A program made the translations under genes and the position numbers. 64,000 bases of DNA, from contig OX637403.1 of NCBI GenBank assembly GCA_951799425.1, positions 25,262,811 to 25,326,810 of the forward strand. The letters run 5' to 3'. Positions within the stretch are counted from its first letter, which is position 1. Each line of letters opens with the position of its first letter. Positions 431-34,353 of this stretch are shown here, piece after piece. The stretch is from Ilex aquifolium (taxonomy: Eukaryota; Streptophyta; Magnoliopsida; Aquifoliales; Aquifoliaceae). The notes under the pieces were generated by a model that searched no databases, was not told where the DNA came from, and saw only the letters and a program-made list of their open reading frames with translations.

Positions 431-1759
431 AAAGAACATTAATTGTTGCATCAGGTCGGTTGACGTTGATTTTGATTTTTGTAACGGGCAATGCTACACG
501 AACCTAATGAAATTATTAAATTAGTCGTGAGTATTGAGTGAAACTCATTTATAAACTAATGATTTTAATTGATTAGGTCATTAAATTAAGTCAAATGATT
601 TTTTGTTTTTAATTTTAAAGAATGTCAAGGGTAATTTTGTCCTTAAAAATTATTCATACATACCCATCTCCAAAATAGGCAAATGAGTCCCATTTTCCAT
701 TAATTTGGATGGAAATTTTATCTCTGCATTTTATTTCACAATCACATGAGGTAGGTCTATGTGATTATTTTGAAAGGTGAGGGAGCTTGTGATTTGCAAA
801 AGGATCTAACCAAGTTAAGTTAAAAATGAAAATTTCCCTTGTTATCAAATACTATTTCAAGATTTAATTTGATTGAAATAATTTAATGATTGAAATAATT
901 ATCCCCAAATTAAATAAAAAACATTATTATTACTACAAGTTATAACTTTTAAACGTTATTTGTGCTTGACCATATCATTCTAGTAGCAATCACAACATTT
1001 GTTGTCGATCAAAAATAACTTCAATTATGGTACCGAAAAGAAATCATACCGTCATTATAAATTTTATAATTTTTTAATACAGTTTGGGGGCCACTTATCT
1101 CTTTTGGGATAATTTGTGATCGATCCTAAAATTGTTTGAATTAATTGTAAAATGTTAGGATTGATCCAAATAATTTTAGAATCGATGCAAAGTACCCCAA
1201 AAAAATGTCACTTGACCACATAAAGTTATAATTTCAACTCTTAAAATTGTAATATAATCCAAAAAATTATAAATTTTTTTTTTGTAAATACAAAAGACTT
1301 ATAAAATTTAACAGTACAATATCAATTTTTTTTTTAAATCTTCTCCGTTTTTGTGACATTGTGGTGCATGACTTATATTATCATAAGGTATTTAGTTCCG
1401 GCTATAATCCAACAATTGTCCTTATGACGTTAGTTGATGTACTAGCATGACTCTTAGAATCGATCATTGGTCCGAACACCCCTGACGGCAATACCTAAAA
1501 AAAATAAAAAAATCTCAGAATCAACCTTTTTTAGAGATGGTTCTTGAGGGTCACCAGGGGCCCAGTAGGACTAACCCATTAAGTTGCGCTCTAGAGGCCC
1601 ATTGGGACTAATCATGGTCCGTGCTTTTCTTCACGGACTAGCCCGACTCAGCTGATTGACCAGCCACTCTCCGATTGCCCAGTCTGTCCTTAGCTGAGTA
1701 GGCCGTACCTGTTACCAGGGCCTCGTGATTCTATTGGTTTGCTTTTTATTAAATTTCAG
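431..1759. other. AT-rich non-coding DNA; probably intron or 5' flank of the FAO gene
   Basis: No convincing coding exon is visible. The last 20 or so bases before 1760 form a pyrimidine-rich intron end (tttattaaatttcag), so at least the right part is intron of the alcohol oxidase gene. I looked for the missing N-terminal FAO exon here and did not find it. It should lie upstream of the window, or is lost. Confidence 0.5.
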
Positions 1760-3724
1760 GTGAATGAGAAGGACGAGAACCCATCCTGGAAGGCAATAGA
1801 CTACTGCGGACCTGATCCAGACTTCAAAACTCAGATTAGGAAAATCAAAAGATCAACAGAAATGGAATATCAAAGATCAACATACAATGAACAAGACGAG
1901 GACTTAGATGAAAAAGAGATGCTTGGACCTCTTTACAAAGGAATCATCGATATAAGGAAACCACTACAAGTAGTAGCAGAATCCCTAAAACGATCAGGTT
2001 TCCAGGTCTCAATGTACCATGGGAAAAATAAAAGTTCATATTCATTCAATCCTTCCTTAACTATCAAGTGTGATGCAGTTGTAATTGGTTCAGGCTCTGG
2101 TGGTGGTGTTATTGCCGGAGTTTTAGCAAAAAGTGGATACAAGGTGCTTGTCTTAGAAAAAGGGAACTATTTTGCTAGGAGCAATCTCTCACTTCTTGAA
2201 GGAAAAACTATGGATCAAATGTACCTAGGCCATGGGCTACTAGCTACGGATGATATGGGTGTTGTAATACTTGCAGGTTCCACCGTCGGTGGGGGCTCCA
2301 CCATAAATTGGTCGGCTTCCATTCCGACTCCCCCACATGTAATCAAAGAATGGTGTGAAACCCATGAGCTGGAATTATTCGGCAGTCAATTGTATAAAGA
2401 AGCCATGGATACTGTTTGCCAGAGAATGGGAGTTCAATCACAGGTTGATGATGAAGGATTCAACAATATGGTTTTGAGAACAGGGTGTCATGAAATGGGT
2501 TATCCTGCAAATACTATCCCTCGAAATTCAACCCCTGATCATTATTGTGGATGGTGCAGTCTCGGATGCAAAGATGGAAGAAAGAAAGGTACCTCAGAGA
2601 CATGGCTAGTAGACTTGGTGGATTCGCGCAACGGAGCAATTCTTCCTAGGTGTGAGGCCATAAAGGTCCTACATAAGCACGAAAAAGGAAGAGATCGACC
2701 CATTGCAACTGGAGTTGCTTTTGAATTCCATTGTCAAGGGATGAAAGAAGTTTGTGTGGTGGAGTCGAAGGTGACTGTTGTGGCATGTGGGGCTCTGTGC
2801 ACTCCTACACTCCTAAGAAGAAGTGGCCTGAAGAATCCAAATATTGGCAAAAATCTGCATCTTCATCCAGTAACAATGGCGTGGGGCTACTTTCCAGATG
2901 CACACTTGTCCAATGCATGGCCAACCCCAGAGAAGAAGAGCTATGAAGGGGGCATAATGACAGCAATGTCCACAGTGGTGGGAGATTTCAAAAAATCTGG
3001 CTATGGTGCAATCATACAGACACCAGCATTGCACCCCGGGATGTTCTCAGCTTTGATGCCTTGGGTTTCAGGTACGACTTAACAAATTACCATCCCAACT
3101 ATTTGGAATCAGTTACATGAATCAAGTTTCTTGCTCTATAGAGGGTTATATTTTGTCATTAACCCACAAATGTCTTGAGTTTCAGGTATCGACTTTAAAA
3201 ATCGAATGTGCAAATTTTCGAGGACTGCCCACTTAATTGTATTGGCAAGAGATATAGGGTCGGGAGAGTTGGCCTCACCGAGCTCGATCAGTTACGGGAT
3301 GGACTCTACTGATGAAGACCATCTAAAGAGAGGACTAGAGAAGGGCCTGAGGATATTGGCAGCAGCTGGAGCTGAGGAAATTGGAACTCATCATCGTAAC
3401 GGAAGGACATTAAACGTGAAACAAGTGAGCTCTCATGCATTTGAGAGGTTCGTCAAGGAGGAGAGTTCAAATGCATTAATGAACCTTTCAACTACTATAG
3501 CTTCAGCACATCAGATGGGGAGTTGCCGAATGGGAGTCGATCCAAAGGGCTCTGCCGTGAATCCAATGGGAGAGACATGGGAGGTAGAGGGACTGTATGT
3601 GGCAGATTCAAGTGTCTTTCCAACTGCATTAGGTGTGAATCCAATGGTCACCATTCAGGCAATTTCTTACTGCACTGCACAGTCAGTTCTTGAAGCTCTG
3701 CGGAGAAAGAAGAACGAGTGGTGA
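1760..3724 (+). CDS. FAO: Long-chain fatty alcohol oxidase (FAO), 3' exons only
   Basis: A flavoprotein of the GMC oxidoreductase family that oxidises long-chain fatty alcohols to aldehydes, usually membrane-bound in peroxisomes or ER (family knowledge). Two exons are seen: 1760-3071 and 3186-3724, joined in phase at GT/AG sites and giving 616 residues plus stop. The FAD-binding loop GSGSGGG follows a hydrophobic strand (CDAVVIGSGSGG) near residue 110 of the visible part. The second FAD signature is AGSTVGGGSTINWSASIPTP. The C-terminal GMC domain carries AHQMGSCRMG, VADSSVFPTALGVNPM and the end ALRRKKNEW. Full-length FAO is about 740 residues, so roughly 130 N-terminal residues with the membrane helix are missing from the window. 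No stop or frameshift is seen in these exons. It may be the FAO4A type, judged partly by its neighbours. Confidence 0.9.
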
Positions 3725-6572: not shown

Positions 6573-7123
6573 GGGTTAATTACATTAGAGGTCCTTAAAG
6601 TATAAAATTTATTTCATTTTGGTCTCTAATATTTCAATTATATTATTTTGATCCCTGAAGTATTGAATATGTTTCTATATGGTCATTCAAGCAGACAACG
6701 TTCAGATTGCTAACGATTTTTTATCATAAACTTGTAACGTAATCACTAAATATGAACAAAAAATATTTTTGATATTTCTTAAACAAAATTTGGATAGCTC
6801 TTGACAAAAAAATGTGTAATATGAGTTATTTTTTACCAAAATTTAGATAGCTTATAATCAAAACTATGTAATTTAGGTAGGTATTTAAACCAAAATTTGA
6901 ATAGAAATTTTGTTAAGAGTTATTTAAATTATTTTTTTGTACATATTTAAGGATCATGTGACAAGTTTATGATAAAAAATAGTTAGCAATCTGGACACTG
7001 TCTGTTTGAGGGATTATATAAAAACATATTCAATACTTCAAGGACTAAAATAATGCAATTAAAACATTGGAGACCAAAATGAGATAAATTCTATACTTTG
7101 GGGACCTCCAGCGCAATTAACCC
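6573..7123. mobile_element. Non-autonomous MULE-type MITE, gggttaatt family, copy 1
   Basis: A 551 bp element beginning gggttaattacat and ending gcgcaattaaccc, with long imperfect inverted repeats. Each end contains a variant of ...cattttggtctc...aatatttcaattatatt... and ...gcagacaacgttcagattgc.... It has no coding capacity. Related copies lie at 61108-61657 and from 62976 (truncated). The outermost bases gggttaattgc are shared with the coding MULE at 8846-13644. I do not see a clean 9 bp duplication at this copy. Confidence 0.65.
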
Positions 7124-8685: not shown

Positions 8686-8845
8686 GAGCCTCCCCTTCCC
8701 GCAGTAGGTGACGGATCGAGCCACATTCCAAAGGATGTATCCCTCTCTTTTAAGTGTTTTCTAGAGAACTACAAATATTATTTAGATTTAATTTAGGAAT
8801 TTAATTTGTACACTTAATTAAATATTCTTGTTGAATTAAAATTAA

Positions 8846-9070
8846 GGGTTAATTGCGGCTATGGTCCCCAAAGTATTCATTTTGTCTCATTTTGGTCCCC
8901 AACCTTCTAATTTCATCAAGTTGGTCCCCAAAGTATTATAAGTGCACTTACCTAGTCCCCGCCGTTGACACCGTCCATAATTCCGTCTGTTCATAGTCAT
9001 GTGCCATCTGCATGACTCAAGTGAGGGGCTTATATGACATTTAGCCTTCTCCCATTACTGGAGGGAAACT
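8846..9070 (+). repeat. MULE left terminal inverted repeat
   Basis: About 225 bp, from gggttaattgcggctatgg to ctggagggaaact. It matches the reverse complement of 13421-13644. It probably carries the promoter of the transposase gene, since the first exon starts 164 bp further in. Confidence 0.9.
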
Positions 9071-9233
9071 GATCAGGAGACTCTTCAATGTCTTCAGTCT
9101 TCACTTGTTCTGCAAACCAGGCAAGATTCTTCAGTTAGGGCAAATCACGATTAAGGAAAAACACGATCACCATTAGGGAAAAACACGATCACCATTAGGG
9201 CAAAGCAGAACACTATTAGGGCAAAGCACAAAG

Positions 9234-12023
9234 ATGGTACATTCCAAACGACGGAAGACTGGGAATCAATATGCAGATGAAGACATTGTGCATATCAGTA
9301 TGTACTCATTCTTATAGATTTGAGTCTAAGGTTCATGGGAAAGATTGATTTTGTAAACCATTTGTTTATGTGATCATCTTTCGGGTATAAATGTTTGTTC
9401 GAAACCATTTGTTTATGCATTGGAAACTCTTTGTTAATAGTTTGTGTAAGTTGCAATATTTTTATAGTTGATGTGGTCCTTGAAAACCATTTGTTTATGC
9501 ATTGGAAACTGTTCAGTAATAGTTAATGTGTTAGTTGCAATATTTTATAGTTGATGTGGTCCTTAAACAGGATCTTATTATACAAGAATGACATTGGAGA
9601 ATCATCAGGTTGATGATGATGTCTTAGTTGATAAAGGGAAAAGGGTAGCATCAGAGTCTGATGCATCAGACGGTGAATACCAACCTGATTGTGAATCTAT
9701 TGAATCTAGTGAGTATGATACGTTGGTGGACAGTGATTATGAAAGTGACTATGATGACATGTTGTATGATAGTTATGTTGATAATGAAGTTGAATGGACT
9801 GGTTTGAATAGTAATAGTCAGAAAGAAACAGCAACAGACAAAAGACAACAGTTAGAACTCAGTGATACAGATGATGATTCTGAGGAGATTTTAAGCTGCT
9901 TCAGTTCATCTGATGGAGAGAATCATGCAAGAAAACATAAAAAATTTGAAGTTTTTAGGGCAGAAAATGATGAGGAAGACCCACATTTTAAACTGGGTAT
10001 GTTATTTAGAACATTTGAGGAGATCAAGGCTGCCATTAGACAACATGCTATCGAACATCAGAGAAATGTGAAATTAGTAAAAAATGATAAGAGGAGGGTG
10101 AGGGCACAATATGAAGGGGGCTGCAGTTGGCTGGTTTATGCTTGTAGAGTGCATGGTGAGAAAACATACCAAATAAAGACATACATTAGTAAGCATACAT
10201 GTGGAAAAACTTATAATAACAGAAATGTCACCTCAAAGATGATAGCATTGAAGTATATGGATGAACTAAGGGCCAACCCTTGTTGGCCTATAAAGGCTTT
10301 TAAAAAGAGGGTTAGGAGAGATTTTCATGTTGATGTATCAAGGAATCAATTGTATAGGGCAAAGAAAAGGGCAATGTTGTTGATACATGGTGATGAAATT
10401 GAACAATATGGTAGATTGTGGGATTACTGTGAGGAACTAAGGAGTACTAACCCTGGTTCCACAATTATTTTGGATGCACCTGGTGATAAGGAAAATGGTG
10501 AACTTATATTTCAGAGGTTTTATGTATGTCTTGCAGCATGTAAGAGGGGATTTCTTCAAGGGTGCAGGAAAGTGATTGGATTAGATGGTTGCCACCTGAA
10601 AGGGGCATATAGTGGACAATTGTTGACTGCTGTTGGAATTGATGCCAATGATTCTATGTTTCCCATTGCCTACTGTATTGTTGAGATTGAGATGAAGGAA
10701 TCATGGGCATGGTTCTTAACAGTACTATGCACTGACTTAGGCATAATTGATCAAAACCATGAGCAGTGGACCTTCATCACTGACAGGCAGAAGGTATGTT
10801 TGCATGTTTATTTCTTTATCAGTTTATATTAACATGTTTGCTACAAGTATAATTATTGTATATGTTGTGCAGGGTTTGCTTCCAACATTGACTGAGATAG
10901 TACCAGCATTTGAGCATAGGCATTGTGCTAGGCACATGCTAAACAATTTGATTAGACAGTTTAAGGGATTGAGTATTAGGAAGAAATTCTGGAAATGTGC
11001 TAGGGCAACTTATATTTCAGAATTTGACTATGAGATGCAAATGGTGAAAGAAGAAGATGAGAAGGCATTTGATTGGTTGGCCAATGAGCCACCAAGGTAT
11101 TGGAGTAGGTCACACTTCAGAGAACAACCTAAGTGTGATATTTTGTTAAACAATCTATATGAGAGCTTTAATGGGGCAATTATAGAGGCAAGGGATAAAC
11201 CCGTCATAGAAATGCTAGAATGGATTAGATGCTACTTAACTCAAAGAATGTTGAAGAGGAGAGAATGGGTTGGGAATTATAATGGTGATATATGCCTTAA
11301 GATTCAAAAGAGATTAGAGAAATGGAAAAGTGGAAAAGTGGTAGCTTTGATTGTATTGTTGAGTGGCATGGTGAGTTGAAGTTTGAGGTAAGGTGTATGA
11401 ATGGAGACCAATACACAGTTGATTTGAATGAGCAGTGTTGCTCATGTAGGAAATGGGACTTGACAGGGATCCCATGCCCACATGCCATTGCTTGCATACA
11501 AAATAGGGGACAACAACCAGAAGATTATGTAATTGGGCAGTACAAGAAGGGGACATTCATGCAGGCTTATGAACCAATTATAAACCCCATTAATGGACAT
11601 AAGACGTGGCCTAAAAGTGGATTGACCCCACCATTGCCTCCATTGATCAGGAGACAACCTGGTAGGCCAAAAAAATTACGGAGGAAGGAACCAAATAAGT
11701 TGATTAATAAAAAACAACCACATAAGTTGAGGAAATGTGGAAATGTATCAGTTAATTGTAGGAGATGTGGTAAAAATGGGCATAACAGGAGGACTTGTAC
11801 TGTTACACTGCCAGAAGGAAACCAAGCTGAAGGAAACCAAGCTGGGGGGAGCCAAGCTGGGGGAAGCCAAGTTGCTGTGAGCCAATCTGATGTGAGTCAA
11901 GGTGGAGGGAGCCAAGCTGCTGTTATCCAAGCTAGAGTGAGTAAAGCTGCTGTGAGCCAATCTGATGTGAGCCAAGGTGGAGGGAGCCAAGCTCCTGTGA
12001 AAGGAATATCTTGCTTTGAATAG
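9234..12023 (+). CDS. MURA-type MULE transposase, frameshifted near 11323-11338
   Basis: Transposase of the Mutator superfamily. Proposed exons are 9234-9297, 9571-10793 and 10873-12023, all GT/AG and in phase; the first exon (MVHSKRRKTGNQYADEDIVH) is the least certain. The protein starts with a long acidic stretch. A MuDR DNA-binding domain follows (FKLGMLFRTFEEIKAAIRQH ... CSWLVYACR ... HTCGKTY). The DDE domain has the first Asp in VIGLDGCHLKGAYSG and the second in FITDRQKG. A SWIM zinc finger (CSCRKWDLTGIPCPHAIACI) and a CCHC zinc knuckle (CRRCGKNGHNRRTC) come after. The tail is a run of five-residue repeats. An 8 bp tandem copy of tggaaaag at 11323-11338 moves the frame between the DDE domain and the SWIM finger. 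Elsewhere the frame is open, so inactivation looks recent. Confidence 0.88.
11816..12000 (+). repeat. 15 bp minisatellite coding for GSQAA/VSQSD-type repeats
   Basis: About twelve degenerate 15-base units of the type gccaagctgggggaa follow the zinc-knuckle codons of the transposase and code for a five-residue repeat (GNQAE, GGSQA, DVSQG and similar). Units such as VSQSDVSQGGGSQA occur twice, showing expansion by block duplication. Confidence 0.85.
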
Positions 12024-12872
12024 GTAATTACTGCTAAGTAATTTCAGGCAATCCATTGAAGTATTAAACAATTTCATTGAACTTTTTGGCTCATATATCT
12101 TACCTTTTTCTCTCTATATATAGCTTCAAGGTTCAACCATTGGTTCACCATCAACAAGCACCCATAACTTCAAGGTTCAACCATTGGTTCGTACTCGAAG
12201 GGACAAAATACCATTCAAGAAGAGCAAATCAACAAGCACCCATAACTGATCTGCAGCTTCTATTTGTCTGTTTTTTTTTTTTGGGAGCCAAGATTATATG
12301 CAATGTAAATGTGTTGCTCTCTTTTGGGTCTGTGATGAGAGTATAAATCCGGCTGGGATGGTAGCAATGTAAATGTGTTGCTCTCTTTTGGGGTTGTGAT
12401 GTAAATGTACTCTTTCTTGCTCTCATTTTGGGTTTGTACTGAGAGACCAACTTGTAATTATGGACATATTTTTGTCACAACTAACAGGTTGTTACCTTAA
12501 TGAAAATCAGCATTATGTACATCTTTGTTTGATGCTAACAGGTTGTTTGTGTAGTCAACAATATTTACAGGGATTTATGGATATGCCATAGCAATGCTGT
12601 GGCTTTTCTGTATTGGTAATACAATGGTAGTAGTCATGATTCATTGAGAATGACATGGGAGCAATAGATTGGAAAATACCTAACATTTTATATTAGTTGG
12701 ACACATTCAAACTCATAAGTTCACGGCTATTGGAAAATACCTAACACTTAAAAGTTTTGATGCAAACAGGTTGTTTTGATGCAAACAGTTTGTTACACTT
12801 CCAATTACATCAAATATAATAATTACATTTACATAAAACAGAGCTCCTACACAACAAAAACAGGACACCCTC
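12024..12872. other. Interval between the two convergent MULE genes
   Basis: Non-coding. It holds two direct repeats: caaggttcaaccattggttc near 12126 and 12171, and atgtaaatgtgttgctctctt near 12304 and 12369. Both genes point into this region, so it should contain their polyadenylation sites. Confidence 0.6.
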
Positions 12873-13345
12873 CTACACAAAAACAGAGCACCCTCCACAG
12901 ACAAACAGGGCACTCCTACTTACAGGAAATGCCACACCCAAGTGAAAATAAAAAAATGTCCAAGAACATAACAGAGCAACCCATAATAATTTTTCCCTAA
13001 CTTTTGCCTTTCGTTGTTGGTTCTTTTGTCTTTGCTTTGATCGCAGCAATCCGGGTATCACTTGCCTCGCTCTATCGCACATTGGCGGGTCATACCAAGC
13101 AAAAAATCCACACCCTCCAGCCTCCTACAAATGCAAGATTTTGTTAAATGCATTCAAAATCGAAAACTCAGTAACAAAATCCAGAACATATGTTTTACCC
13201 CATATCTTTCACATCTAATTAACCTTCTTCCTGGGTTGGTATCGGTCCATGAGGTCCTCATTTTGCCTATTTGTCTACAGAAGCATGGTGTTGCTAGCAT
13301 TCCAGCCGCTGATCCCTTTCCTTTCCTTCCCCTCATTTTCTCCAT
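12873..13345 (-). CDS. GRF zinc-finger protein with C-terminal membrane segment, antisense in the MULE
   Basis: Two minus-strand exons, 13345-13199 and 13124-12873, join in phase 0 at GT/AG sites (gtaaaaca ... catttgtag) to give 132 residues. The N-terminus is basic (MEKMRGRKGKG). The zf-GRF motif follows: Cys21-Phe-Cys23, then MRTSWTDTNPGRR, Cys45, then GGCGFFAWYDPP with Cys54, and QVIPGLLR. A Lys/Arg/Gln-rich segment leads to a hydrophobic stretch at about 95-115 (LLWVALLCSWTFFYFHLGVAF), probably a transmembrane helix. The start used is the first Met giving a compact GRF protein; the frame stays open upstream to 13456, inside the right TIR. GRF fingers bind nucleic acid in other proteins. 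Its role in the transposon is unknown; position and direction match mudrB of MuDR, but the sequence is not of that family. Confidence 0.8.
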
Positions 13346-13420
13346 CTCAGTTCCTATGCTCTGTAACAGACAATGGGTCATAGGGAGGAGGCTAAATGGG
13401 TCATAACTGATGGCGGGAAG

Positions 13421-13644
13421 GTTTCCCTCCAGTAATAGGAGAAGGCTAAATGTCATATAAGCCCCTCACTTGAGTCATGCGGATGGCACATGACTATGAA
13501 CAGACGGAATTATGGACGGTGTCAACGGCGGGGACTAGGTAAGTGCACTTGTAATACTTTGGGGACCAACTTGATGAAATTAGAAAGTTGGAGACCAAAA
13601 TAAGACAAAATGAATACTTTGGGGACCACAGTCGCAATTAACCC
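13421..13644 (-). repeat. MULE right terminal inverted repeat
   Basis: About 224 bp, near-complement of 8846-9070, ending gcaattaaccc. It lies just upstream of the minus-strand GRF gene and probably supplies its promoter. Confidence 0.9.
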
Positions 13645-13759
13645 TAAAATTAAATTATATTTTACATTGAAACTCATGACTAATCAAATGGTTGTATTGA
13701 ATTAAATTTCTAATTACATCTTCAAATTAGGTCACTATAACATTGCTCCTAAAAAAATG

Positions 13760-18822: not shown

Positions 18823-19510
18823 TTTTTTAATCATTTTGTAAATACACTAATAATCACGATACAACTATAGACCTTATAGTTTTTGTTTCTTTAAAATGTT
18901 CTTTGAATTCCCAAGTTAATAATATTTTGCTCCCATTTTAATCCATCAATTGTTTGAGCATTGAATAAGGCACGTCTCACCCAAAAAAGAAAAGAAAAGC
19001 AATAGGATACATTTTATATTAAAAGACAAAAAGCAAAGGAAATAAAGAAACAAGGGTTTTTTGTACTTTCTACCTTGAAAAATTTTAAGATTTTTATTTT
19101 GTATTTTTAGAAGTTAAATTTTTTATATTATATCATTAATGTATCAATAGTATTTCAATGTGACCCTTCTATTAACTTCCGTTATTTTTTTCATCAAAAG
19201 TCAACCTATTTATACTAACAAAAAAACTAACAAAAGAGTTACATTACAACATTTTTGATACATTCAAGATTCAATATAAAAAATTTAATTTTTAAAGGTG
19301 TAAAATGAAAAATTTGAAATCTTTCAAGATACAAAATATAATTTACTCGAGAAACAATAAAGAAACTTAAAAAGTTAAATAACAATATTATTGAAACATA
19401 ATTTAAAAATATAATTTGGAGGTTCAAAGATTGTAATCATTTCATTATCGGTGAGTCTCAACACTCAATATAGTACACTTTACTAATAATCTAAGAGCCA
19501 TAATGTATTA
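18823..19510. other. AT-rich spacer before the Gypsy element
   Basis: No recognisable exon or element. The last five bases (tatta, 19506-19510) are the left target duplication of the Gypsy insertion. Confidence 0.5.
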
Positions 19511-20461
19511 TGACGAGTCCAAATTCAACTGAGCTAAGCCCGATGAAAATAAGTCGAGAAAGGCCCAAATACCAATGGGCCCCGGGATTAATCCAAGTCT
19601 CTAAAACCTATCAAGCCGGGTCACCCATCTAAGGAGAACGGAGAAGAGGCGAAGGAGTCGAGGGACAGTCGAAGCCCTATGGGCGCCGACTATGGCAGCC
19701 CCATGGGCGCCGACCCCTTGGTTGAGCTCCCCACTCATCATCTCAACTCCTCACTTGCCCTCTCCTCATACCATGATATCCCAAGGAAGAATGCACTAGA
19801 AGGTCAAGGCCTAAGAAGACATCAATGGGATGACCACCATTGGGCGCCGACTATGGGCGCCGACCACTGGGCGCCTACCCCCATGGTGCTCCCTTGCCTT
19901 GGTACTCCAGTACTCCTACTCCTATTCCAACTCAGGGTCCAAGCCTAAAGTCCAATCCAAGTCAGGAATCTCCTCCGACTGAATAGGAACACGAGGGAGA
20001 GAATGACGGGATGCGAAGATCTACTCTTACCTTACTTGTGCTTACCAAAGAGGTCTACTCCTACCATGATTGCACTTACCAAAATAGTGAAGACCTCTTC
20101 CTCACGACACCGCCTCACCGCCTCACCATTGTTATATAATGTAAGCCCTCTCAAGGGTAAAGGGACACGGAAAACATCTCCAACATACTTGCTCTCTCCT
20201 TCTCTCTATCTCTCTCTCTCTCTCAAGCTCTGTAACACTTCGTTGAATGTTATTCATCAATAAAGAACACCGGCAAACACTGCCATTCGAAAGAGTGGAC
20301 GTAAGTCACCCGAGACCGAACCATTATAAATCTCTTGTGTTGACCCGTTATTTATTATTTTACTCTTGATTGCCATTAATTACATGCTAATTGCTCATTA
20401 ATCACACCCGTTGATATTCTTGACTGTTGATCTTGCACGAAGACAGTTTTGTGCATCATCA
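19511..20461 (+). repeat. 5' LTR of the Tat-lineage Gypsy element
   Basis: A 951 bp LTR from tgacgagtcc to gtgcatcatca. It contains several short copies of ATGGGCGCCGAC-like sequence and a CT-rich run near 20190-20225. Confidence 0.92.
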
Positions 20462-20464
20462 GTT

Positions 20465-20485
20465 TGGCGCCGTCTGTGGGAACGA
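20465..20485 (+). promoter_or_regulatory. Primer-binding site of the Gypsy element
   Basis: tggcgccgtctgtgggaac begins three bases after the LTR end. It starts with the TGG complement of a tRNA CCA end, in the form usual for plant Tat/Athila elements. The same site occurs in the element at 54144-58584. Confidence 0.75.
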
Positions 20486-20539
20486 CAAAGTTTTTACTAT
20501 CTTTCTATTCTTTCAATCCATTGCAATCACCACGAGATC

Positions 20540-22020
20540 AATGTCTCAACAACCCGGGGACAACAACCCGGCTCACCGGGAGGAGGTTCCGCCTCCCTCC
20601 GCACCTTCAGGACCTTCTGCCACGGCGACCCCCGTCGTCGGACAGCAACAACTCTTGCAGACCATGCAGCTGCTGGTGGAACAGAACCAGCAGATTATCC
20701 AACTTATGCTCACCCAAGGGGGCATCGCCCCTCACCCTGCAGGAGGAGCACCACTCCCTCCAACAGGGGAGGAGCAACAACCCCTTCTTTCTGGGCACCG
20801 GGCAGCCCATCATCATGGGGGCCTCCGCCAGAATGCCCCGAGGCCACAAGGCGCCTCTCGTCCAGTAGCCCCTCCTCAGCGCGCAGGAAACTCACGTGTA
20901 CCCCCTATTTCACACGTACCTGCACAGGAGGACGAAGACGGCGAGAGTCAGTATGGTGATCACCAAAGCCAGTATCGTCATCCGACTGTAGATCCCCCCA
21001 ACCAGTGGGACGAGAAGATTAGAGAGGTGCAGAACCAACTTGGAGATGCCCTCAACGCCATCAAGGCGCAAGCACCTGAAGCCGTAGACTATCTGGTAAG
21101 ACGTACTGATACGCCTTTTACTGCTGATATTGTCAATTATCCTTTGCCTTCAAAGTTCAAGATGCCCAACATCGAGATCTTCGATGGCACCAAAGACCCC
21201 CTCGACCACTTGGATACGTACAAATCTCTCATGCAACTCCACAACGTGCCTGAGGAGATTATGTGCAGAGCTTTCCCTACTACCTTGAAGGGGTCTGCTC
21301 GCCAGTGGTTCTCCAAGATAAAACCTTCCTCCATACACTCCTTTGCAGAGCTGAGTAGGTCCTTCGTCTCCCACTTCATTGGGGGACGCCGCCACCAAAA
21401 GCCAGTGACACACCTGCTCACCATCAAGCAGGACAGGGACGAGAGTCTCAGGGGCTATCTTGCCCGCTTCAACAAGGAAGTCATCCAGGTTGAGGAGCCG
21501 GATGATAGGGTGGCCTTGGCTGCTTTTATCGCTGGGCTCCGCTCATCCAGCTTCATGTTCTCCGTGCTAAAGAAGCCACCCTCTAGTATGCCCGAGCTGC
21601 TGTCCAGGGCTCAGAAATACATGAACGCGGAGGACATCACTAAGGCCCGCCGGGGAGAACCCTCTCGAGGAGGTGAGAAGAGAAAAGAAAGCCGTGAAGA
21701 TAGGAGGGAGACCGAGAACAAGAGAAAGAAAGATGACAGGGTGTCTGTGAAGGACCGTCTCGATCCACTACCCCTAAAAGACCGACAGCCTTTCACACCA
21801 CTCAACGCCTCAGTGGAGCACATCTTGCTCCAAATACAGGATGACCCTGCCATCCGTTGGCCCGGAAAAATGAAATCCGACCCCAAGCGCCGGAATACCA
21901 GTAAGTACTGTCGCTTCCACCGCGACCACGGCCATGAAACAGATGACTGCTTCCAGCTGAAGAAGCAGATTGAAGAGCTTATTCAACGGGGCCATCTGAG
22001 GCAGTACGTGGCTGGTTGAG
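20540..22020 (+). pseudogene. gag region of the Gypsy fossil
   Basis: Codes for a Pro/Gln-rich N-terminus (MSQQPGDNNPAHREEV...), then a capsid-type retrotransposon gag domain (FDGTKDPLDHLDTYKSLM, FPTTLKGSARQWFSKI, RGYLARFNKE). A charged Arg/Glu/Lys segment leads to a Cys/His motif (CRFHRDHGHETDDCFQLK). Clear homology to the gag remnant at 55250-55950. Confidence 0.85.
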
Positions 22021-22249
22021 GACCAGCTCCACCGCATGAAGAGCATGAACACCAGCAACCCCTTGGCGAGATTCAGACCATCGCAGGAGGGTTAGGAGGA
22101 GGAGGTGACTCCAACTCCGCCAGGAAGGCACACGCTAGGAAAGCCAGACAGGCAGAGTCACATGACTCTCGCCCAATGAAGACACCCCGACATGGGGAAG
22201 AGGAGATCATCACTTTCTCAGACAGAGACCTGGAGGGGGTTCAAGCTCC

Positions 22250-25200
22250 ACATGATGACCCTCTAGTCCTAACGTTGATGGTGGCCAACTACCAGGTGAG
22301 GAGAGTACTTATTGATAGTGGCAGCTCCGCCGACATCCTGTTTGCCACAGCCTACGACAGCCTTCACCTTGGTAGAGAGAGACTACAACCTGTCAGGACT
22401 CCCTTGGTTGGCTTCTCAGGAGAGAGAGTCCAACCCCTGGGTTCTATCACCTTGCCTGTCACAGCAGGGACTGCTCCAAGGAGTTCTACTATCATGGTAA
22501 ATTTTCTTGTACTTGATTGCCCTTCTGCGTATAATATAATTCTCGGACGCCCTGCCCTCAATGCTCTAAAGGCAGTGCCATCTACCTACCACCTTCTCAT
22601 CCGTTTCCCAACCTCTAGTGGGATTGGGGAGATAAGATGAGATCAGGTCTCAGCCAGAGAGTGCTATGTGGCCTCGATGAGGGCTACGAGGTCACAGGAG
22701 ACTCTCCAAGTCGAAGTGTATGACCCCAGGGAGGACAGTGCCATAGAAAGGGGTGAACCAGCAGAAGAGCTCCGACCAGTTATGATCAATGATAATCTTC
22801 CAGAAAGGAAGGTCTACATAGGCTCCTCACTTTCACAGGAGCAGGCTTCCGCCTTGGTAGACTTCCTCAGACAGAACGCAGACGTCTTCGCTTGGTCTCA
22901 CAAAGACCTGGAAGGCATCAACCCAAAGGTGGTCACCCATCGACTCAATGTCGACCCGAGATGTAAGCCTATTCGACAGAAATTGAGGAATGTAAGCACT
23001 GAAAGGGGGCAAGCCATGGAAGCAGAGGTAGACAAGTTATTAACTAATGGATCAGTAAGGGAGGTAGCCTACCCAGACTGGCTATCCAATGTGGTGATGG
23101 TAACTAAAACCAATGGGAGATGGCGCCTATGCGTAGACTTCACAGAACTCAACAAAGCCTGTCCAAAAGACAGCTATCCACTCCCACGTATTGACCTCCT
23201 TATTGATGTCACTGCTGGTCATGAACTCTTGAGTTTCCTGGATGCCTACTCCGGTTATAATCAGATCAGCATGTTCCCCCCAGACCAGGAGAAGACCTCT
23301 TTCATCACTCCAAAAGGCACTTACTGTTACAAAGTGATGCCTTTCGGACTCAAGAACGCCGGGGCCACTTACCAGCGCCTCGTCAACAAGATGTTTGAGG
23401 GTCAAATTGGAAAGACCATGGAGGTCTATGTAGATGACATGTTGGTGAAGAGTGTAGTTGCGAATGATCATGCATCGCACCTACAGGAGACCTTTGACGT
23501 ATTAAGAGCCTACAAGATGAAGCTGAACCCTGAAAAGTGTGCCTTCGGGGTCGGCTCAGGAAAATTTCTAGGCTTCATGGTCTACAAGAGAGGCATAGAG
23601 GCCAACCCTGACAAGATCAGGGCCATCATGGAGATGAAGTCCCCCGCCTCGACCAAGGAGGTCCAGCGCCTCAACGGAAGGGTAGCAGCCCTCAACAGGT
23701 TTGTCTCTAAGTCAGCCGATAAATGCCTATCTTTCTTTAAAATCCTACGCAGGTCATTCCAGTGGGAACCAGAGGCTGAGGAAGCCTTTCAGAAGCTTAA
23801 AGCCTACCTCGCCGCATCACCTCTGCTCTCCCATGCACTACCAGGGGAAAAACTGTACTTATACCTCTCCTCTTCACCGTCTGTCGTAAGCTCCGTCCTC
23901 ATCAGAGAGGATGAGGGCACCCAGAAGCCCGTCTACTATGTGAGCAGAGCCTACCGAGGGGCAGAGATAAGGTATTCGGAGTTAGAAAAATTAGTTCTTG
24001 CCCTCGTCACGGTAGCCAGACGTCTGCGCCCCTACTTTCAGGGCCACACCATCGTGGTAGTTACCGATCAACCACTTAAAAGAATTTTGGGGAAGCCTGC
24101 CGTCTCTGGTAGGATGCTCAAATGGGCAGTGGAGTTGAGTGAATTCGACATACAGTACCAGCCTAGGGTTGCCATCAAAGCCCAAGCCCTTGCAGATTTC
24201 GTGGCAGAGTCAACGCCCTTGTGGGAGTCCCAAGGAGAGGCATCAGGCGTCCGTGCGCCCACCTACTCAGTGCACGCTAACTCCGCCCACCAGGAGTCCA
24301 GCCTAGATGTTGCCCAAGAGGGGAACCACTACCCAGAGAAGGAGGGGGAATCAGCTGCGCCGACCACATTACCAGAGGCGCCACTCACTAAGCCCTGGGC
24401 GCCGCCCAGCCTCCCCAAGGCTCCGTCACCTCAGCCCTCATTGCATTCTCCCCCATCACCCCCTACACCATCCTGGAAGCTCTACGTAGATGGGTCTTCC
24501 ACTAGCGAAGGGGGTGGAGTTGGACTAGTACTAATCAGCCCACATGGCACACCCTTGAAGTACGCTGTCTCTTTACACTTCACCACGTCAAACAACCAAG
24601 CAGAGTATGAAGCTCTCATATCAGGCCTAAGGTTAGCTTTGGAGATGGAAGCACTCAGCCTCATGGCCTACAGTGACTCTCAGCTCATAGTCAACCAAGT
24701 GAGGGGAGAGTTTGAAGCCAAGGAAGAAAGGATGCAGGAGTACCTCTCAGTGGTCCAAGCACTGCTCACAAGGTTTGCCTGCTTCGACATCCACCATGTG
24801 CCTCGAGAAGAGAATGTTATGGCAGACGCCCTTGCAAAGTTCGCCTCTGCCAATATTCTCATGGGCCCAGCACTAACGGGTCACCAGTTCCAGCCCAGCA
24901 CCACCAAACCAGAGGAGGAGGTCCACTGTGCATCCTCAGAGTCCAACTGGATGATTCCTATGCGAATGTATCTGCAGGAGGGCACTGGTCCAGACGACCC
25001 GGTAGAGGCCAGAAAAGTGAGGATGAGAGCATCCAGGTATGTCATCCTACAGAACACCCTTTACAAGAAGAGTCACTCTCTCCCTCTACTTCGCTGCCTC
25101 ACCCCCGAAGAAGCCAACTACGCCATGAGGGAGATCCATGAGGGGGTATGTGGGAACCATTCAGGAGGGCGTGCACTGGCCCATAAAGCAATTAGGCAGG

Positions 25201-26183
25201 GATATTATTGGCCTACTATGATCCGAGATGCCAAAGACTTCGTCAAGAGATGTGATAAGTGCCAGCGTTTTGCAACGGTACCCAGACAACCACCCGAAGA
25301 ACTCACCACCGTTCAGAGCCCATGGCCCTTCTCCATGTGGGGGATTGATATCCTAGGTCCCCTACCAATGAGTCGAGGCCAATGCAAGTTTATAGTCGTA
25401 GCCATCAACTACTTTACCAAGTAGGCAGAAGCAGAAGCCTTGGCCAAAATCATAGATCAAAAGATAAAGGATTTAATATGGAGGAATCTAGTCTGCAGGT
25501 TTGGAATACCACATGCCATTGTCAGCGACAACGCCAAGCAGTTTGACAACAAACTCCTCAACGGTTTCTGTGCAGACCTCCAGATCAAGCAACCTCACTC
25601 AAGCCCTGCCCATCCCCAGGCAAATGGTCAAGCAGAGGTCACTGTCAGAACCATACTCCGTAACCTGAAGGCTAGATTGGAGACTGCCAAGGGGAGATGG
25701 GTAGACGAGCTCCCAGGAGTGCTATGGGCATATCGGACCACACCAAGGAGTCCAACGGGTGGAACACCTTTCTCTCTAGCATATGGAACAGAGGCAGTGA
25801 TACCCGTTGAAATCGGGGTACACTCCCTTAGGGTCCAACACTATGACCCTGCCCGTAATGAAGAAGACCTCCGCATCAACCTCGACTTGGTAGAGGGGGA
25901 GAGGGAGATAGCCATGCTCCGGAATGCAGAGTACAAACGTCGCATGACTAAATACTACAACTCCAGGGTGAAGCCTCGGTCTTTCTTACCCGGGGACCTG
26001 GTCTTGAAAAATGTTATCCTGTCTACCAAAGACTCCCGAGAAGGAAAATTAGGACCAAACTGGGAAGGTCCCTATACCGTTATAGAGGTAGTAAGGCCAG
26101 GATCCTACAGAATCCAAAACACCGAAGGAAAGGTCCTAGCCCATCCATGGAATGCGGAGCACTTAAAGAAATACTACCAGTAG
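22250..26183 (+). pseudogene. pol region of the Gypsy fossil (PR-RT-RH-aRH-INT)
   Basis: Parts in order, with approximate positions: aspartic protease with LIDSGSSADIL (about 22250-22560); reverse transcriptase with RLCVDFTELNKACPKDSYPL and YVDDMLVK (about 22950-23560); RNase H (about 23830-24200); a second, archaeal-type RNase H with LYVDGSSTSEGGG, EYEALISGLRLAL and YSDSQLIVNQ (about 24470-24850); and integrase with an HHCC-type zinc motif (about 25130-25280), a catalytic core with GIDILGPLP and VSDNAKQF, and a C-terminal GPYTVIEV module (to about 26180). The family is certain. The region is broken, with few interruptions. Confidence 0.9.
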
Positions 26184-26429
26184 CTGGGGGTAGTGAGTCA
26201 TGAGTCGAGCCCATTACTTGTACTGTTTACTTTTTAGTCGTCTTGCTATTTTTTACTCTCTTAAGTGTTTACTTGGAATTGTAAAATAAAATTTCAAAGT
26301 ACTTTCTCAAAAAGTTGTGCTTCATTAAGACCCATGAGCCTTTTACAAAAAGAAGACATAATCTGTCAACAAAAAAAAGAAAAAAAAAAAAAAGGGTACA
26401 AAGGCATCACTCCTAATGACCCTCACTGC

Positions 26430-28870
26430 TCCCACTCACATAGTCTCCTTCATCGCCGTCTTCATCGGAGTCGGGGGCCTCATCAGGCCGAAAGATAGTA
26501 AAGTCAGTGTAAGGATATTCTGCTGTGGCCTTCCTCCTGAGCTCCTCGTAGCCGTCAATGAAGGCACGGGCCCTGCCCCTCTCAACAGCATCCCTGCCTC
26601 TCTCAGTAGCATCTCTCTGGTAGCTCTCTCAAGTGCTACACGAAGGTCGGCCTCGAGCTGGGTAATCCTCTCCCGCGCCTGCACCAACTCCTCAGCGGCA
26701 CTCTCTCGTGTCTGTCGCTCGAGCCTCAACTGCTTCTCGGCATCCTCTCGTGCCTGCCGTGAAAGCTCTGCAGCATCCTCTCGTGCCTGCTGCACAAGTC
26801 TAAGCTGCTCCTCGGCCGCCTCCCGTGCCTGCCTCTCCATCGCCTGGCTATTGACTGCCTCTCCATCGCCTGAGCTTTAGAGTGTTGTTGAACAAGCAGG
26901 GTAAAGCAGCGGCCACCTGAGAGCATTCAGAGATACAGGAAGAGTCATAAGCAAGACCAAGGTATCACAGAAAGCCACATACAAGGAAAGGGGAGCAAGA
27001 CTTACCAATGCAAAACCCTCCATGGTAGCATCAATTACGCCCTCTGGCCCTCTAGAAGCAATCTCTTGGATCTCGACCCCAGACACAAAGTTTTCCAGCC
27101 TCCCCTTCGCCAATCTCACATCCCTCAACATGGATACTGGGGGAGGACCTGAAACGGGAAAACTGGGCAGACCCTCCGCCCTGTCAGGAGGCAACGTCGG
27201 AGTCTCAGCCCCCGCAGCACTGTAAGAGTGATCTCTCAGGGGCGAAGAAACGTCAAGCGAGGAAGGAGGAGGAGCATCACCCGGGTCAGCCTCTGAGAAA
27301 CTAGCCTGACCAGTAGACTCTGGTCGCGAAGAGCTGGGGGCACTGGATCTTGCCCTCTTGGAACGACAAGGGGGAGATGGCTCCGCCATAGAAGAGAGAA
27401 CCTCCCCCACCAGGGACCTGTCAACAGGAAGACCTGCAGGGCCAATGTAAGCCAAAAAAGCATACCATGTTGTGCTTTCAAAGGAATAACGAAGGGAGTA
27501 AAGTACCTTTCCTCCTCGGCCTCGTAAGAATCGAAGGAATACCGGGCGCCGACATGATCTCTGAAAACTTTCTGGTCGGGTAGTTACGGACCACGTCGAG
27601 CAGCCTCTCTTGCATTGGTGGATCTGCAAAGAGAAGGTAACATCACAAGAGCAAATAGGCAAAAATTAATGCAGAAACAGTAGGTGAAATAGTTACCTTG
27701 GGAACTCCGGGGAACTGTGTCCCATCGGGTGGGCACCACGTCACGATCAGACTCAGAAGCCCACTCTCCACCGACGAAGAAAAATCTCCTCTTCCAATTG
27801 TGAAGGTTGGACGTAAGCCCCTCAATAATCCTGCCCGCACTGGGGGCAAAACGGTACCATCCCTGATGGGGAACCGGGTTCACACGAAGAGCATGAGTAG
27901 CCAAGAACTCTTCGAGCGGCAGGGGGACAGTAGCAGGGTGAACCAATCGCCAAAGAGTAAAGAATGCAATAATCACCCTCCAACCATTGGGGGCCAACCT
28001 CCCCGGGACAAGGGACAAGTACTCCAGAACCCGACATATAGGTCTGGGGATAGGGAACCGCGGACCAGCCTCCAACATACCCTCATAAACGACGATCTCG
28101 CCTAGGGAATCACTGCATGCAGACTCGTCGGCCTTGGGACGGCGGCATGTCACGGAGGGAGGGATACGGTACCAGGTAACTATGTTGGAAATATCTTCGT
28201 CGTATTTAAGAGAGCTAAATATAGAGACTACCTGAGAAGTATTGTTCCCCTCTGCACTTCGACCTTCGCCAAGGTCCCCGGCGGGTTCCCCCTCATCTGA
28301 AAGGATACCCCAGGGGCAGGCTCAGTTCGTTGGTAGGAAAAAATTTGTCATATTGACAAAGGATATAAAAAAAAAAGCAGCGGAACATACCTTGGGAGCC
28401 AGGCCTATCCAAGTCAGCAACTGGCCGTTTTCTAGACTCGAGAGATGAGAGCTGCACCACGCCGGGGGTGTCATCGGATGACCTCTGGGCACCACCCACA
28501 CCGCCTGAAGAGCCCAGGGCGCCGCCTAGACCATGGGTACTGCCCTCAGTTGAAGATTTACTCTGTTGCACAACTATGCCTTGAGCCCTCGCTGACATGC
28601 CGAAGGGGTTGACTGGGGCCTTAGTGCTTGAACCCGACCTCGAACTGATAATCCCAAAGGGCTTTTCTCCACTGGAAGACATCCCCGCAGCGCCGCAACC
28701 ACCAACAGGACGATTAAAGCCAACACGGAGGGGAGGGGAGGACCCATGGGCGCCGACCATGGCAGCTCCTTGGGCGCCGACCATGGCAGCCCCTTGGGCG
28801 CCCCCTCTCCGCTCCTCTCCTTTTTGCTCCTCCCTTCCATCATCTCTTGAGCTCCTTGTCTTCATTTGTT
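26430..28870 (-). pseudogene. Antisense gene region of the Tat element (Transposase_28-like)
   Basis: On the minus strand between pol and the 3' LTR there are open stretches in several blocks, consistent with a spliced antisense gene known for this lineage. From its 5' side: a Gly/Ser/Pro-rich start (MKTRSSRDDGREEQKGEERR...); a block near 28150-27690 with YEGMLEAGPRFPIPRPI, PNGWRVIIAFF and RRFFFVGGEW, matching the plant Putative gypsy type transposon family; a Ser/Pro-rich block near 27400-27050; and a coiled coil near 26840-26440 (repeats of QAREDAAEL). Its function in the element is unknown. The plus-strand readings here are shadows. Confidence 0.7.
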
Positions 28871-29278
28871 TGCTTTGGGAGTATGAGGGGAAGGCTAAAG
28901 AAAAAATGGTGAGAGGCTATGAAGTGTGAAGTAGGATGAACAATGAGCTCTTGGGTGCCTTTAAATAGGGAAGACAAAGCTTCTTGAGGAAGCTTGGTAA
29001 AGCTTCTTATGGAAGCTTGGTGGTTTACCCAAAGAAAAGGCCTTCAGAAATGAGCAACTACGATACAAGGAAGAAGATGGAACAGTAGCCTCAACTCGTA
29101 GACAAAAAAATATATATATATACATAAAATAATAATGTATATATTTTTATTATTTCCTGGAAAAACTCAGCAAACGACCCGATAAAGGGGTACCGTGAAG
29201 AGTAAGGAAAAGCCATGACGAAGCCGAAACACATGCCCTCGACCTCTTTATTTCCGAGAAAATCAGAGCTCGGAGCAT

Positions 29279-29288
29279 GGGGGGCAAA
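29279..29288 (+). promoter_or_regulatory. Polypurine tract of the Gypsy element
   Basis: ggggggcaaa directly before the 3' LTR start (tgacgagtcc). The element at 54144-58584 has the similar tggggggaaa at 57961-57970. Confidence 0.75.
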
Positions 29289-29956
29289 TGACGAGTCCAA
29301 ATTCAACTAGGCTAAGCCCGATGAAAATAAGTCGAGAAAGGCCCAAATACCAATGGGCCCCGGGATTAATCCAAGTCTCCAAAACCTATCAAGTCGGGTC
29401 ACCCATCTAAGGAGAACGGAGAAGAGGCGAAGGAGTCGAGGGACAGTAGAAGCCCTATGGGCGCCGACCCCTTGGTTGAGCTCCCCACTCATCATCTCAA
29501 CTCCTCACTTGCCCTCTCCTCATACCATGATATCCCAAGGAAGAATGCACTAGAAGGTTAAGGCCTAAGAAGACACCAATGGGATGACCACCATTGGGCG
29601 CCGACTATGGGCGCCGACCACTGGGCGCTTACCCCCATGGTGCTCCCTTGCCTTGGTACTCCAATACTCCTACTCCTATTCCAACTCAGGGTCCAAGCCT
29701 AAAGTCCAATCCAAGTCAGGAATCTCCTCCGACTGAATAGGAACACGAGGGAGAGAATGACGGGATGCGAAGATCTACTCTTACCTTACTTGTGCTTACC
29801 AAAGAGGTCTACTCCTACCATGATTGCACTTACCAAAATAGTAAAGACCTCTTCCTCACGACACCGCCTCACCATTGCTATATAATGTAAGCCCTCTCAA
29901 GGGTAAAGGGACACGGAAAACATCTCCAACATACTTGCTCTCTCCTTCTCTCTCTC

Positions 29957-32419
29957 TGTAAAACCCGAGAAATTTAAACTTTTTCCAAAAAAGGGCAAAA
30001 TAGTAATTTGCCACTATAATGCGTATTTAAAATACTCATGTTCTAGACCTCGGATGAGTAAACGGAGTTCGCTATTGAATTCGTATCGCGAAATTTAGTC
30101 ACCTTGTCAAATTTCGTCGAATTTCGAAATAGTCGAATTTTGCACGTCGTTCGAGGCGACTGCGTGGCGATTTACCTTACGAACGTCCCCATAAATAAAT
30201 TTTATAAAATTTCCTTAAAATTAAGTTAAGTTCAAATAAAATTAATTTGAACTTAAACTGGGATCAAACGAATCGTTTCGGGACGAAATCGGACCCGATT
30301 AAGCGAAGGACACGTGGCGCGACGTGGGTCGAGTATTAGAAATATAAATAGAGGCAAATATCTGCATTTTAGGCAGAAAAATTCTGCCATTGTGCTGGTC
30401 TTCAACGTGTGGGAGAAAGAGGGAGAGAAAAGAGAGAAAACATTGATCTTCAAGCTTTCTCCGGCGATTTCCCAGACTTCCGTCGCTCGGAATCCGTCGA
30501 ACCAAGAGTCAAAGTCGATCCTCTCGACGAGGGCTACGCAACCACACCAAGAACGGGGGATTTCACCGAAGATCCAAAAGAGGAGATTTGGGGGAAATCT
30601 AGTCTTGGGCTAGGAAAGTGTTCTTAAAGCTTCCTTCGGGTGATTACGCTTCAAGAGGTAGGGTTCTCCCTACTTTGGTGTAATCTTTCCTTAGATGTTA
30701 GTAGTCTAAAGTTTTGATATGCTATGCCTATGATAGACCTTCATATATAGGTTTATGGTCATAGAAATGGAAAAGTGAACATAGAGATGGTTTAAATCTA
30801 ATTTCTAGCTTAACTTTGGTGTATGAAGTTACATGTGAATTATTATGTAACTTGGGGAAATTTGAGGCATGATTATGAGATTTATAAATTGTGCCTAGAA
30901 GGTGTTTGATTAAATGCCTTGTTTGAATGGAAGTAGTTGTTTTAATTGAATTGAAATAACATGCTTAAGTTTAACTTGTGGAATCATATGCATATGATAT
31001 GATTTGTAATTAAATGTGCTTGTTGATATATGCATATGTTGATATAGTAACATTGAAATGAATATGGTAATTATATGCTTAGGATATAAATTTATCATGG
31101 ATGTGTTGAAATTGTGCATGGGTTGTTCTTGACATATTGAACATCATGTGGTATGCAATGGGACATAGCATTGCATGTGCACGGAAGCATCTCATTACAT
31201 GGGTGTGTGCATGGTTGATGTCAACGCCACATTTGGTAATTGACGAAATGGTTTGGGAAAAGTTAGGTCGAAGACCTAGCTAAGCCCATGATTGCATGAT
31301 AAATTGGGTCGGGATGAGCAAGAAGAGGCATGACGACCTCTCGTGTGAAAGACCCGGTGATTTGGGGGGTGCACTCCATTGGTATAAGAGCCCATAAAGT
31401 GTACGGGTGTGGAAAACCATTGGTATGAGTCCATGAAAAAGTCCGATCCCAAGAAAGACCCTAGCTTTGAAAATGTCATTTGATGAAACATAAATGATGA
31501 AATGAAACACTTTGGCATTGCATCGTGTTGTAGGAGTCGGTGAGGACTCGGGTTGAAATGCATGAGGGAGTGACATCTCATTTCATGGCATGGTAGTATT
31601 GCATTCCAACTTAGGATGCATGTCCTTGTGAGAAATGATTGTTTGCAAATGAATGTTGCATGAGCATGAACATCTAGGGGGAGAGTAGCCCTTGTAGGGT
31701 TTACTTTACTGGGCGTTGGCTCACCCTATACGGGAAACATTTCAGGTGTGGGGTTTGCACCGGCGGATGGCTCACTTGGAGAGCATCAAACATGAAGGGG
31801 GCCGACTTGTGGCCTTAGTTCGAGTTTTTTGTAAAACTTTTGTATAAATTCCATTTTGATGTGTAAATTATGGAATTAATTGTAATGGAACTTGTATAAG
31901 TTGTGTATTATATGGAAATCCTTGTCAAACATGTATTTGATGAATTGGGAAGGGTTTTGAATGGCTTGGAAATGAAAAATAGGTAAAAAGGGGCAATTCT
32001 GGGCCAGGCGTACCGGTACGCGTACCGGTACGGTTAGGTCCAGAAGGCGTAGCGTACCGGTACGCGTACCGGTACGGTTAGGTCTAGAAGGCGTAGCGTA
32101 CCGGTACGGTTAGGTCCAGTAGGCGTAGCGTACCGGTACACTCTCCAAAATTCAGAATTTTTTTATTCTTTTGCCAAGTCTTTGGGCTATGTTTCCCTCC
32201 CTTCTAATGTTACAAATGGATAATAAGGGGATACCAATGGTGGTATATTGGATCTCGGATAGGTCAACCAACCGAAAGAAATTGGACTTGTATTTTTTTT
32301 ATCTCGGTAAAGGGAATGTGGTGCCGCGGTATCGGGTTAAGCGACATCCACGGGTATTTCCGCGGGTTGACGGGTTGTCAACGGTTAATACAGGACCCCC
32401 GGAAAACTGGGGCGTCACA
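29957..32419 (+). mobile_element. Solo LTR of a second Gypsy family (Del/Tekay-like)
   Basis: A 2.46 kb sequence starting TGTAAAACCCGAG and ending GGGGCGTCACA, with the short inverted ends and TG..CA tips of long Del/Tekay-type LTRs. No gag or pol sequence is present, so it is a solo LTR left by recombination. A TATA box (tataaatag, about 30345) is followed by a transcribed-looking leader. It sits in the CT microsatellite of the Tat 3' LTR, which hides the 5 bp duplication. It must be younger than its host element. Confidence 0.8.
32005..32140 (+). repeat. Tandem palindromic repeats (GTACCGGTACGCGTACCGGTAC) in the solo LTR
   Basis: About three units of 40-46 bp, each with the palindrome gtaccggtac once or twice around cgc, joined by ggttaggtccagaaggcgtagc. 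The first two units carry the double palindrome and later ones a single one. Confidence 0.9.
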
Positions 32420-32727
32420 CACACTCTCTCTCTCTCAAGCTCTGTAACACTTCGTTGATTGTTATTCATCAATAAAGAACACCGGCAAACACTGCCATTC
32501 GAAAGAGTGGACGTAGGTCACCCGAGACCGAACCACTATAAATCTCTTGTGTTGACCCGTTATTTATTATTTTACTCTTGATTGTCATTAATTACATGCT
32601 AATTGCTCATTAATCACACCCGTTGATATTCTTGATTGTTGATCTTGCACGAAGACAGTTTTGTGCATCATCATATTAAGTTCTTAGATTACGTCCTAAT
32701 AATATTAGTGCAAAAAGAATGAGTAAT

Positions 32728-33964: not shown

Positions 33965-34353
33965 TAAAAATAATATAGGATAAGAAAGAATAAAGGTGTA
34001 AAAAACAAAAGAAAAAAATCCACCACGTGCAACCACGTGTTACTAGTAAAGCAGATGGTGTCGAATAAGCCACACACCATCCACAGTCCTACTTCTACAC
34101 CAAGTCTGGTGTTTTTCAACCCCACCCACGGGTAACTCTCTCTCTCTCCGTTCCACTGTATATTCTCCCTCTCATGTAGATCTTCGTTTGCTCCGTAGTA
34201 GAGTCCCACTCTGTGTCCCAGTCTCCCAGACCATTATTTCCTACAGTTTCCTACGATCCCCATACGTTATTCACATTCAAACCTTAAACCCAGAAACTCT
34301 ACAGAATTCAAACGCTAAAGACCCAATTTCAAACACTAATCCCAAATAACAAG

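Follow-up and report, generated by a model that had tools for sequence, protein, structure and literature searches.

In maize MuDR, inverted repeats of about 200 bp serve as the promoters of two genes, mudrA and mudrB, one of which encodes a transposase (PMC8224964). The mudrB gene, which is transcribed in the direction opposite to the transposase gene (PMC9168764), is required for Mu insertion in maize, and the protein that it encodes has been termed novel (PMC8224964). Abermu type II Mutator-like elements (MULEs) from 13 plants carry an antisense reading frame, ORFR, between MURA and the 3' repeat, described there with no assigned function (PMC9168764). Other second genes reported in MULEs, sometimes or often antisense, encode ULP1 (PMC2528002) or PMD (PMC6446971) domains. 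The convergent layout, as exemplified by mudrB and the Abermu ORFR, is thus already known. Here we describe a MULE of the terminal inverted repeat (TIR) type at positions 8846 to 13644 of a 64-kb stretch of Ilex aquifolium DNA (the window), in which the antisense second gene is predicted to encode a small protein with a GRF zinc finger. Because the mudrB protein is described only as novel and ORFR has been assigned no function in those accounts, a second gene that bears a recognizable finger of a nucleic-acid-binding kind would provide a biochemical handle on that problem.

Long inverted repeats, a target duplication of about 9 bp, and MURA-type transposase domains place the element among the MULEs. 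The two inverted repeats aligned without gaps over 224 bp at 96.43% identity, and the 9-bp target duplications on the two flanks were identical. An earlier note on this DNA, made from its letters alone, had described a complete MULE with repeats of 225 bp and a perfect 9-bp duplication. The ends and the duplication were as it described them, the repeats are 224 bp rather than 225 bp, and "complete" applies to the ends of the element alone, since a break in the MURA frame leaves the coding capacity impaired. Pack-MULEs, which are usually small and nonautonomous (PMC9168764), are MULEs without a transposase of their own; in the Ilex element the transposase domains are present, though their frame is broken.

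The gene that reads inward from the right end has two predicted exons, spans positions 13345 to 12873, and encodes 132 residues, in agreement with the earlier note. The splice scan paired 2 donors (13180-13199) with 3 acceptors (13110-13144), and four of the six pairs yielded proteins of more than 70 residues (73, 74, 131, and 132), of which the 132-residue version was used. The predicted gene is complete, with a start codon, a stop codon, four finger cysteines, and one conventional intron. Its identity as a GRF zinc finger gene, which had been proposed from motifs in the translation, was upheld by a match to PF06839 on residues 20 to 61 that narrowly exceeded the cut-off (26.8 versus 25.9 bits; E = 5.7e-6). 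This was the only family that Pfam found in the protein at E values up to 1. Cysteines are located at residues 21, 23, 45, and 54, and these fit the four zinc ligands of a GRF finger. Residues 1 to 94 are strongly basic, with 23 lysines or arginines versus 7 aspartates or glutamates. The membrane helix that had been predicted for the protein corresponds to a hydrophobic C-terminal stretch that is weak to marginal as a helix of a tail-anchored membrane protein, with a best 19-residue Kyte-Doolittle mean of 1.68 at residues 95 to 113. When the protein was compared with the sequences of solved structures (E up to 10), the top match was the GRF part of NEIL3, at a nonsignificant E value of 0.13.

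The plus strand carries a MURA transposase gene that reads inward from the left end, as had been claimed, with three domains that exceed their Pfam cut-offs. DBD_Tnp_Mut (E = 8.8e-11) and the larger part of the MULE transposase domain (E = 1.6e-11) were recognized in the exon 2 residues from position 9588 on, and SWIM (E = 4.8e-9) was recognized downstream in another frame, where a zinc knuckle also matched below its cut-off. A short 5' exon that was absent from the earlier account is predicted as well. Its junction had two candidates, and the one chosen over the alternative (9301/9587) has a GTATGT donor. The predicted second intron, between exon 2 and exon 3, is 79 bp. A match of exon 3 to MHC_I (E = 0.04, below cut-off) was dismissed as chance. 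The tail of the C-terminal frame is encoded at 11837-12000 by 10.9 tandem copies of a 15-bp (5-codon) unit.

The MURA frame breaks before the SWIM region, whose frame overlaps that of exon 3. The break coincides with an exact 8-bp tandem repeat, for which the simplest explanation is either that this copy gained a small duplication or that the assembly is in error. Going by the usual positions of DDE residues, the catalytic residues lie before the break, whereas the SWIM region does not. An autonomous MULE has an uninterrupted transposase frame, which this copy lacks, and because the frame breaks before SWIM the copy is probably nonautonomous. Full-length MURA is probably not made by this copy, and therefore the element would move only with MURA supplied by another copy.

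The arrangement of the two genes is convergent and MuDR-like, as the earlier note had proposed. The GRF gene opposes MURA and starts just inside the opposite repeat (start codon at 13345, inner edge of the repeat at 13421). The distance from the inner edge of the repeat to the start codon is 165 bp for MURA and 75 to 76 bp for the GRF gene, and a TTATAT box within each repeat precedes the start codon by 204 bp and 115 bp, respectively. The boxes and the proximity of both start codons to the repeats suggest that both inverted repeats contain inward promoters, as described for MuDR (PMC8224964). However, the inverted repeats are nearly identical, so the boxes count as one observation rather than two. 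The Ilex element shares with maize MuDR the two-gene layout with a second gene opposite to the transposase gene, but differs in that its second gene encodes a GRF zinc finger protein. The likeness to mudrB is one of described layout. Like Abermu type II elements, for which the target duplication is mostly 9 bp and AT rich (PMC9168764), the Ilex element has MURA and an antisense second gene in the place of ORFR. This too is a likeness of layout, and the main text of that paper nowhere contains "grf" (PMC9168764). MULEs with ULP1 or PMD likewise have a second gene, but the extra domain is ULP1 (PMC2528002) or PMD (PMC6446971) rather than GRF, and "grf" is likewise absent from the main text of PMC6446971.

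We consider the GRF gene to be a resident accessory gene of a MuDR-type MULE family with a probability of roughly 0.5, mainly because the gene looks whole, occupies the position of ORFR and mudrB, and has an open frame although the MURA frame is broken. The matching TTATAT boxes, the surplus of basic residues, the nonsignificant top match to the GRF part of NEIL3, and the Oryza GRF gene within a MULE (PMC3503983) point the same way. In such a family, each inverted repeat would hold a promoter that drives one of the two genes inward. MURA would bind to the repeats and catalyze both cleavage and joining of the ends, and the small basic GRF zinc-ribbon protein would be an accessory factor, as mudrB is in maize. 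From the properties reported for the GRF fingers of NEIL3 (PMC9266487) and from the role of mudrB (PMC8224964), we infer that the GRF protein would bind single-stranded or broken transposon DNA ends and thereby help to hold, protect, or join them at the new site. An accessory role of this kind is compatible with the evidence.

Several points weigh against a resident accessory gene. A membrane helix, if there is one, would be hard to reconcile with DNA binding in the nucleus. A protein kinase was the second structure match to the GRF protein, with an E value of 0.16 that is about equal to the 0.13 of NEIL3 and also not significant. No second MURA or GRF gene was found in the 64-kb window with tblastn, which returned only two chance-level MURA matches (E = 0.76 and 0.61). 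The window thus holds the two-gene element only once, and one copy is no evidence that the GRF gene moves together with its family. ORFR-type genes may be dispensable, because a rice Abermu element that lacks ORFR seems to have been active recently (PMC9168764). In addition, the GRF-domain gene GLU-U7 of Oryza, located within a TNR12/MuDR element, was read by its authors as a captured fragment (PMC3503983).

The last of these points introduces the main rival explanation, which we take seriously without favoring it. The GRF gene may be a host gene that was captured in the fashion of Pack-MULEs by an element that kept its transposase, in which case the GRF protein would have no role in transposition. 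Gene capture is frequent in MULEs, and the retained intron of the GRF gene fits a genomic-DNA source. The GLU-U7 gene was interpreted in just this way (PMC3503983), and Abermu ORFRs vary by host and position, so that their authors regard independent acquisition as possible (PMC9168764). However, the Ilex GRF gene looks whole rather than like a fragment, and it lies just inside the repeat in the position and orientation of ORFR. Both the Ilex element and the Oryza element have a GRF gene inside a MULE, but GLU-U7 is described as a Pack-MULE capture and a transposase gene goes unmentioned in the available sections of that report (PMC3503983). The report shows that the association of a GRF gene with a MULE is not unique to the Ilex element (PMC3503983). 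If the gene is a one-off capture, then the element is an ordinary one.

A wider possibility, which we offer only tentatively and regard as rather unlikely, also arises. Many plant MULEs might share an accessory gene for a small GRF protein that, outside maize-type MuDR, does the work of mudrB. A large part of the annotated plant GRF genes might then be transposon genes, some of them adopted by the host, and the earlier note had likewise proposed that many plant GRF genes may belong to transposons, which is compatible with the evidence. If this were true, the annotation of plant GRF genes would change. Small GRF proteins whose C terminus is hydrophobic are numerous in plant genomes, which, if right, favors reading such genes as transposon genes. 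No description of GRF as a MULE accessory gene was found in the available parts of the open-license MULE literature searched, in which GLU-U7 was the single case of a GRF gene within a MULE (PMC3503983).

Of the four noncoding parts of the element that were measured, three have an unusually high content of direct repeats. The measure was the fraction of bases in 20-base stretches that recur 12 to 400 bp away with an identity of at least 17/20. The controls were stretches of the same length from the window outside the element, coding as well as noncoding, plus 60 shuffles of each part. The repeat fraction was 0.549 in the MURA leader at 9070-9233 (control mean of 0.026; reached by 1 of 147 controls), 0.678 in MURA intron 1 (control mean of 0.038; 1 of 147 controls), and 0.405 in the intergenic stretch at 12024-12872 (control mean of 0.048; 0 of 68 controls). 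For each of these three parts, none of the 60 shuffles reached the observed value. The fourth part, the 74-bp GRF intron, had no direct repeats by the same measure.

These repeats invite comparison with VANDAL21, a MULE with extra genes (VANB/VANC) and tandem repeats in noncoding DNA. In that element the VANC21 target motifs are located in tandem repeats of introns and upstream regions, VANC21 binds YAGTATTAY, and VANC has a DUF1985 domain (PMC5735166). Unlike in VANDAL21, neither DUF1985 nor the VANC21 motif was found in the Ilex element; the motif has 5 sites in the window, and 0 of these are inside the element. No word was shared among the repeat families beyond chance: the top 6-mer occurred 10 times, compared with a mean of 8.6 and a maximum of 11 for the top words of the shuffles, and 7-mers and 8-mers behaved likewise. 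It is improbable, therefore, that the GRF protein is a VANC-like anti-silencing factor that would bind repeats in the noncoding DNA of the element and lift its methylation: the repeat content of three stretches (55%, 68%, and 41%, whereas the controls average roughly 3 to 5%) and the location of the motifs in VANDAL21 (PMC5735166) favor the idea, but the lack of a common word, the absence of the VANC21 motif, the Pfam assignment to the GRF family rather than to DUF1985, and the repeat-free GRF intron speak against it.

Three shorter elements in the window resemble the outer 74 to 92 bp of the inverted repeat (68 to 78%). They are located at 6573-7123, at 61108-61657, and from 62976 onward, with one end found for the last. 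None had a sequence match to MURA or GRF, and no perfect 9-bp duplication was seen in the flanks examined for the three. They are probably nonautonomous relatives. Because they lack a MURA or GRF match, they neither support nor refute GRF as a trait of the family. Relatives were also sought in collections of contigs. In viral contigs the GRF protein and two MURA pieces gave 20, 7, and 6 pattern matches, with 0 confirmed, and in prokaryote contigs the MURA exon 2 residues gave 10 pattern matches, with 0 confirmed. The degenerate pattern CGFF..W.D..MC had 0 matches in the viral contigs and 0 in the prokaryote contigs. These scans say little about plants because the collections consist of viral and prokaryote contigs.

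Table 1. Features of the Ilex aquifolium MULE, in window coordinates
Feature	Position	Strand	Remarks
Left target-site duplication	8837-8845	.	TAAAATTAA
Left terminal inverted repeat	8846-9069	+	224 bp; TTATAT box at 9030
22-bp tandem repeat, 4 copies	9144-9229	+	MURA leader; Tandem Repeats Finder
MURA predicted exon 1	9234-9297	+	Begins MVHSKRRKTGNQYADEDIVHI...; splice sites from GT-AG and open frame only
MURA predicted intron 1	9298-9570	+	273 bp
82-bp tandem repeat, 2 copies	9402-9564	+	Within predicted MURA intron 1; Tandem Repeats Finder
MURA exon 2	9571-10793	+	DBD_Tnp_Mut and most of the MULE transposase domain
MURA exon 3	10873-11379	+	Runs to premature stop at 11377-11379
C-terminal MURA frame	11304-12023	+	Contains SWIM, a zinc knuckle below cut-off, and the 15-bp repeat tail; not in frame with exon 3
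Exact 8-bp tandem repeat at MURA frame break	11324-11339	+	Lies before the SWIM region
Repeat-rich noncoding stretch between the two convergent genes	12024-12872	.	
Further tandem arrays	12754-12794; 12835-12913		Tandem Repeats Finder
GRF gene exon 2	12873-13124	-	Residues 50-132 (83 codons, 13124-12876), stop 12875-12873; contains Cys 54, GGCGFFAWYDPP, a basic stretch, and at residues 95-113 a marginal hydrophobic segment
GRF gene intron	13125-13198	-	74 bp, GT-AG
GRF gene exon 1	13199-13345	-	49 codons, residues 1-49; Cys 21, 23, 45; ATG at 13345
Right terminal inverted repeat	13421-13644	-	Matching TTATAT box at 13460
Right target-site duplication	13645-13653	.	TAAAATTAA

The window also contains a long terminal repeat (LTR) retrotransposon at 19510-32673, which is Gypsy type by its domain order (gag, reverse transcriptase, RNase H, integrase zinc domain) and whose 3' LTR seems to be interrupted between 29957 and 32424, where roughly 2.5 kb is inserted. 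Three antisense open frames are located between its pol region and its 3' LTR (26877-28916, minus strand). The middle frame matched Transposase_28 below cut-off (24.5 versus 26.2 bits), and the other two matched nothing. The retrotransposon is thus another mobile element that bears an antisense extra reading frame. A tRNA scan of the window found none. Host genes in the window include an adaptin N-terminal gene at 34288-34995 and a GMC oxidoreductase gene of the long-chain alcohol oxidase type at 1694-3724.

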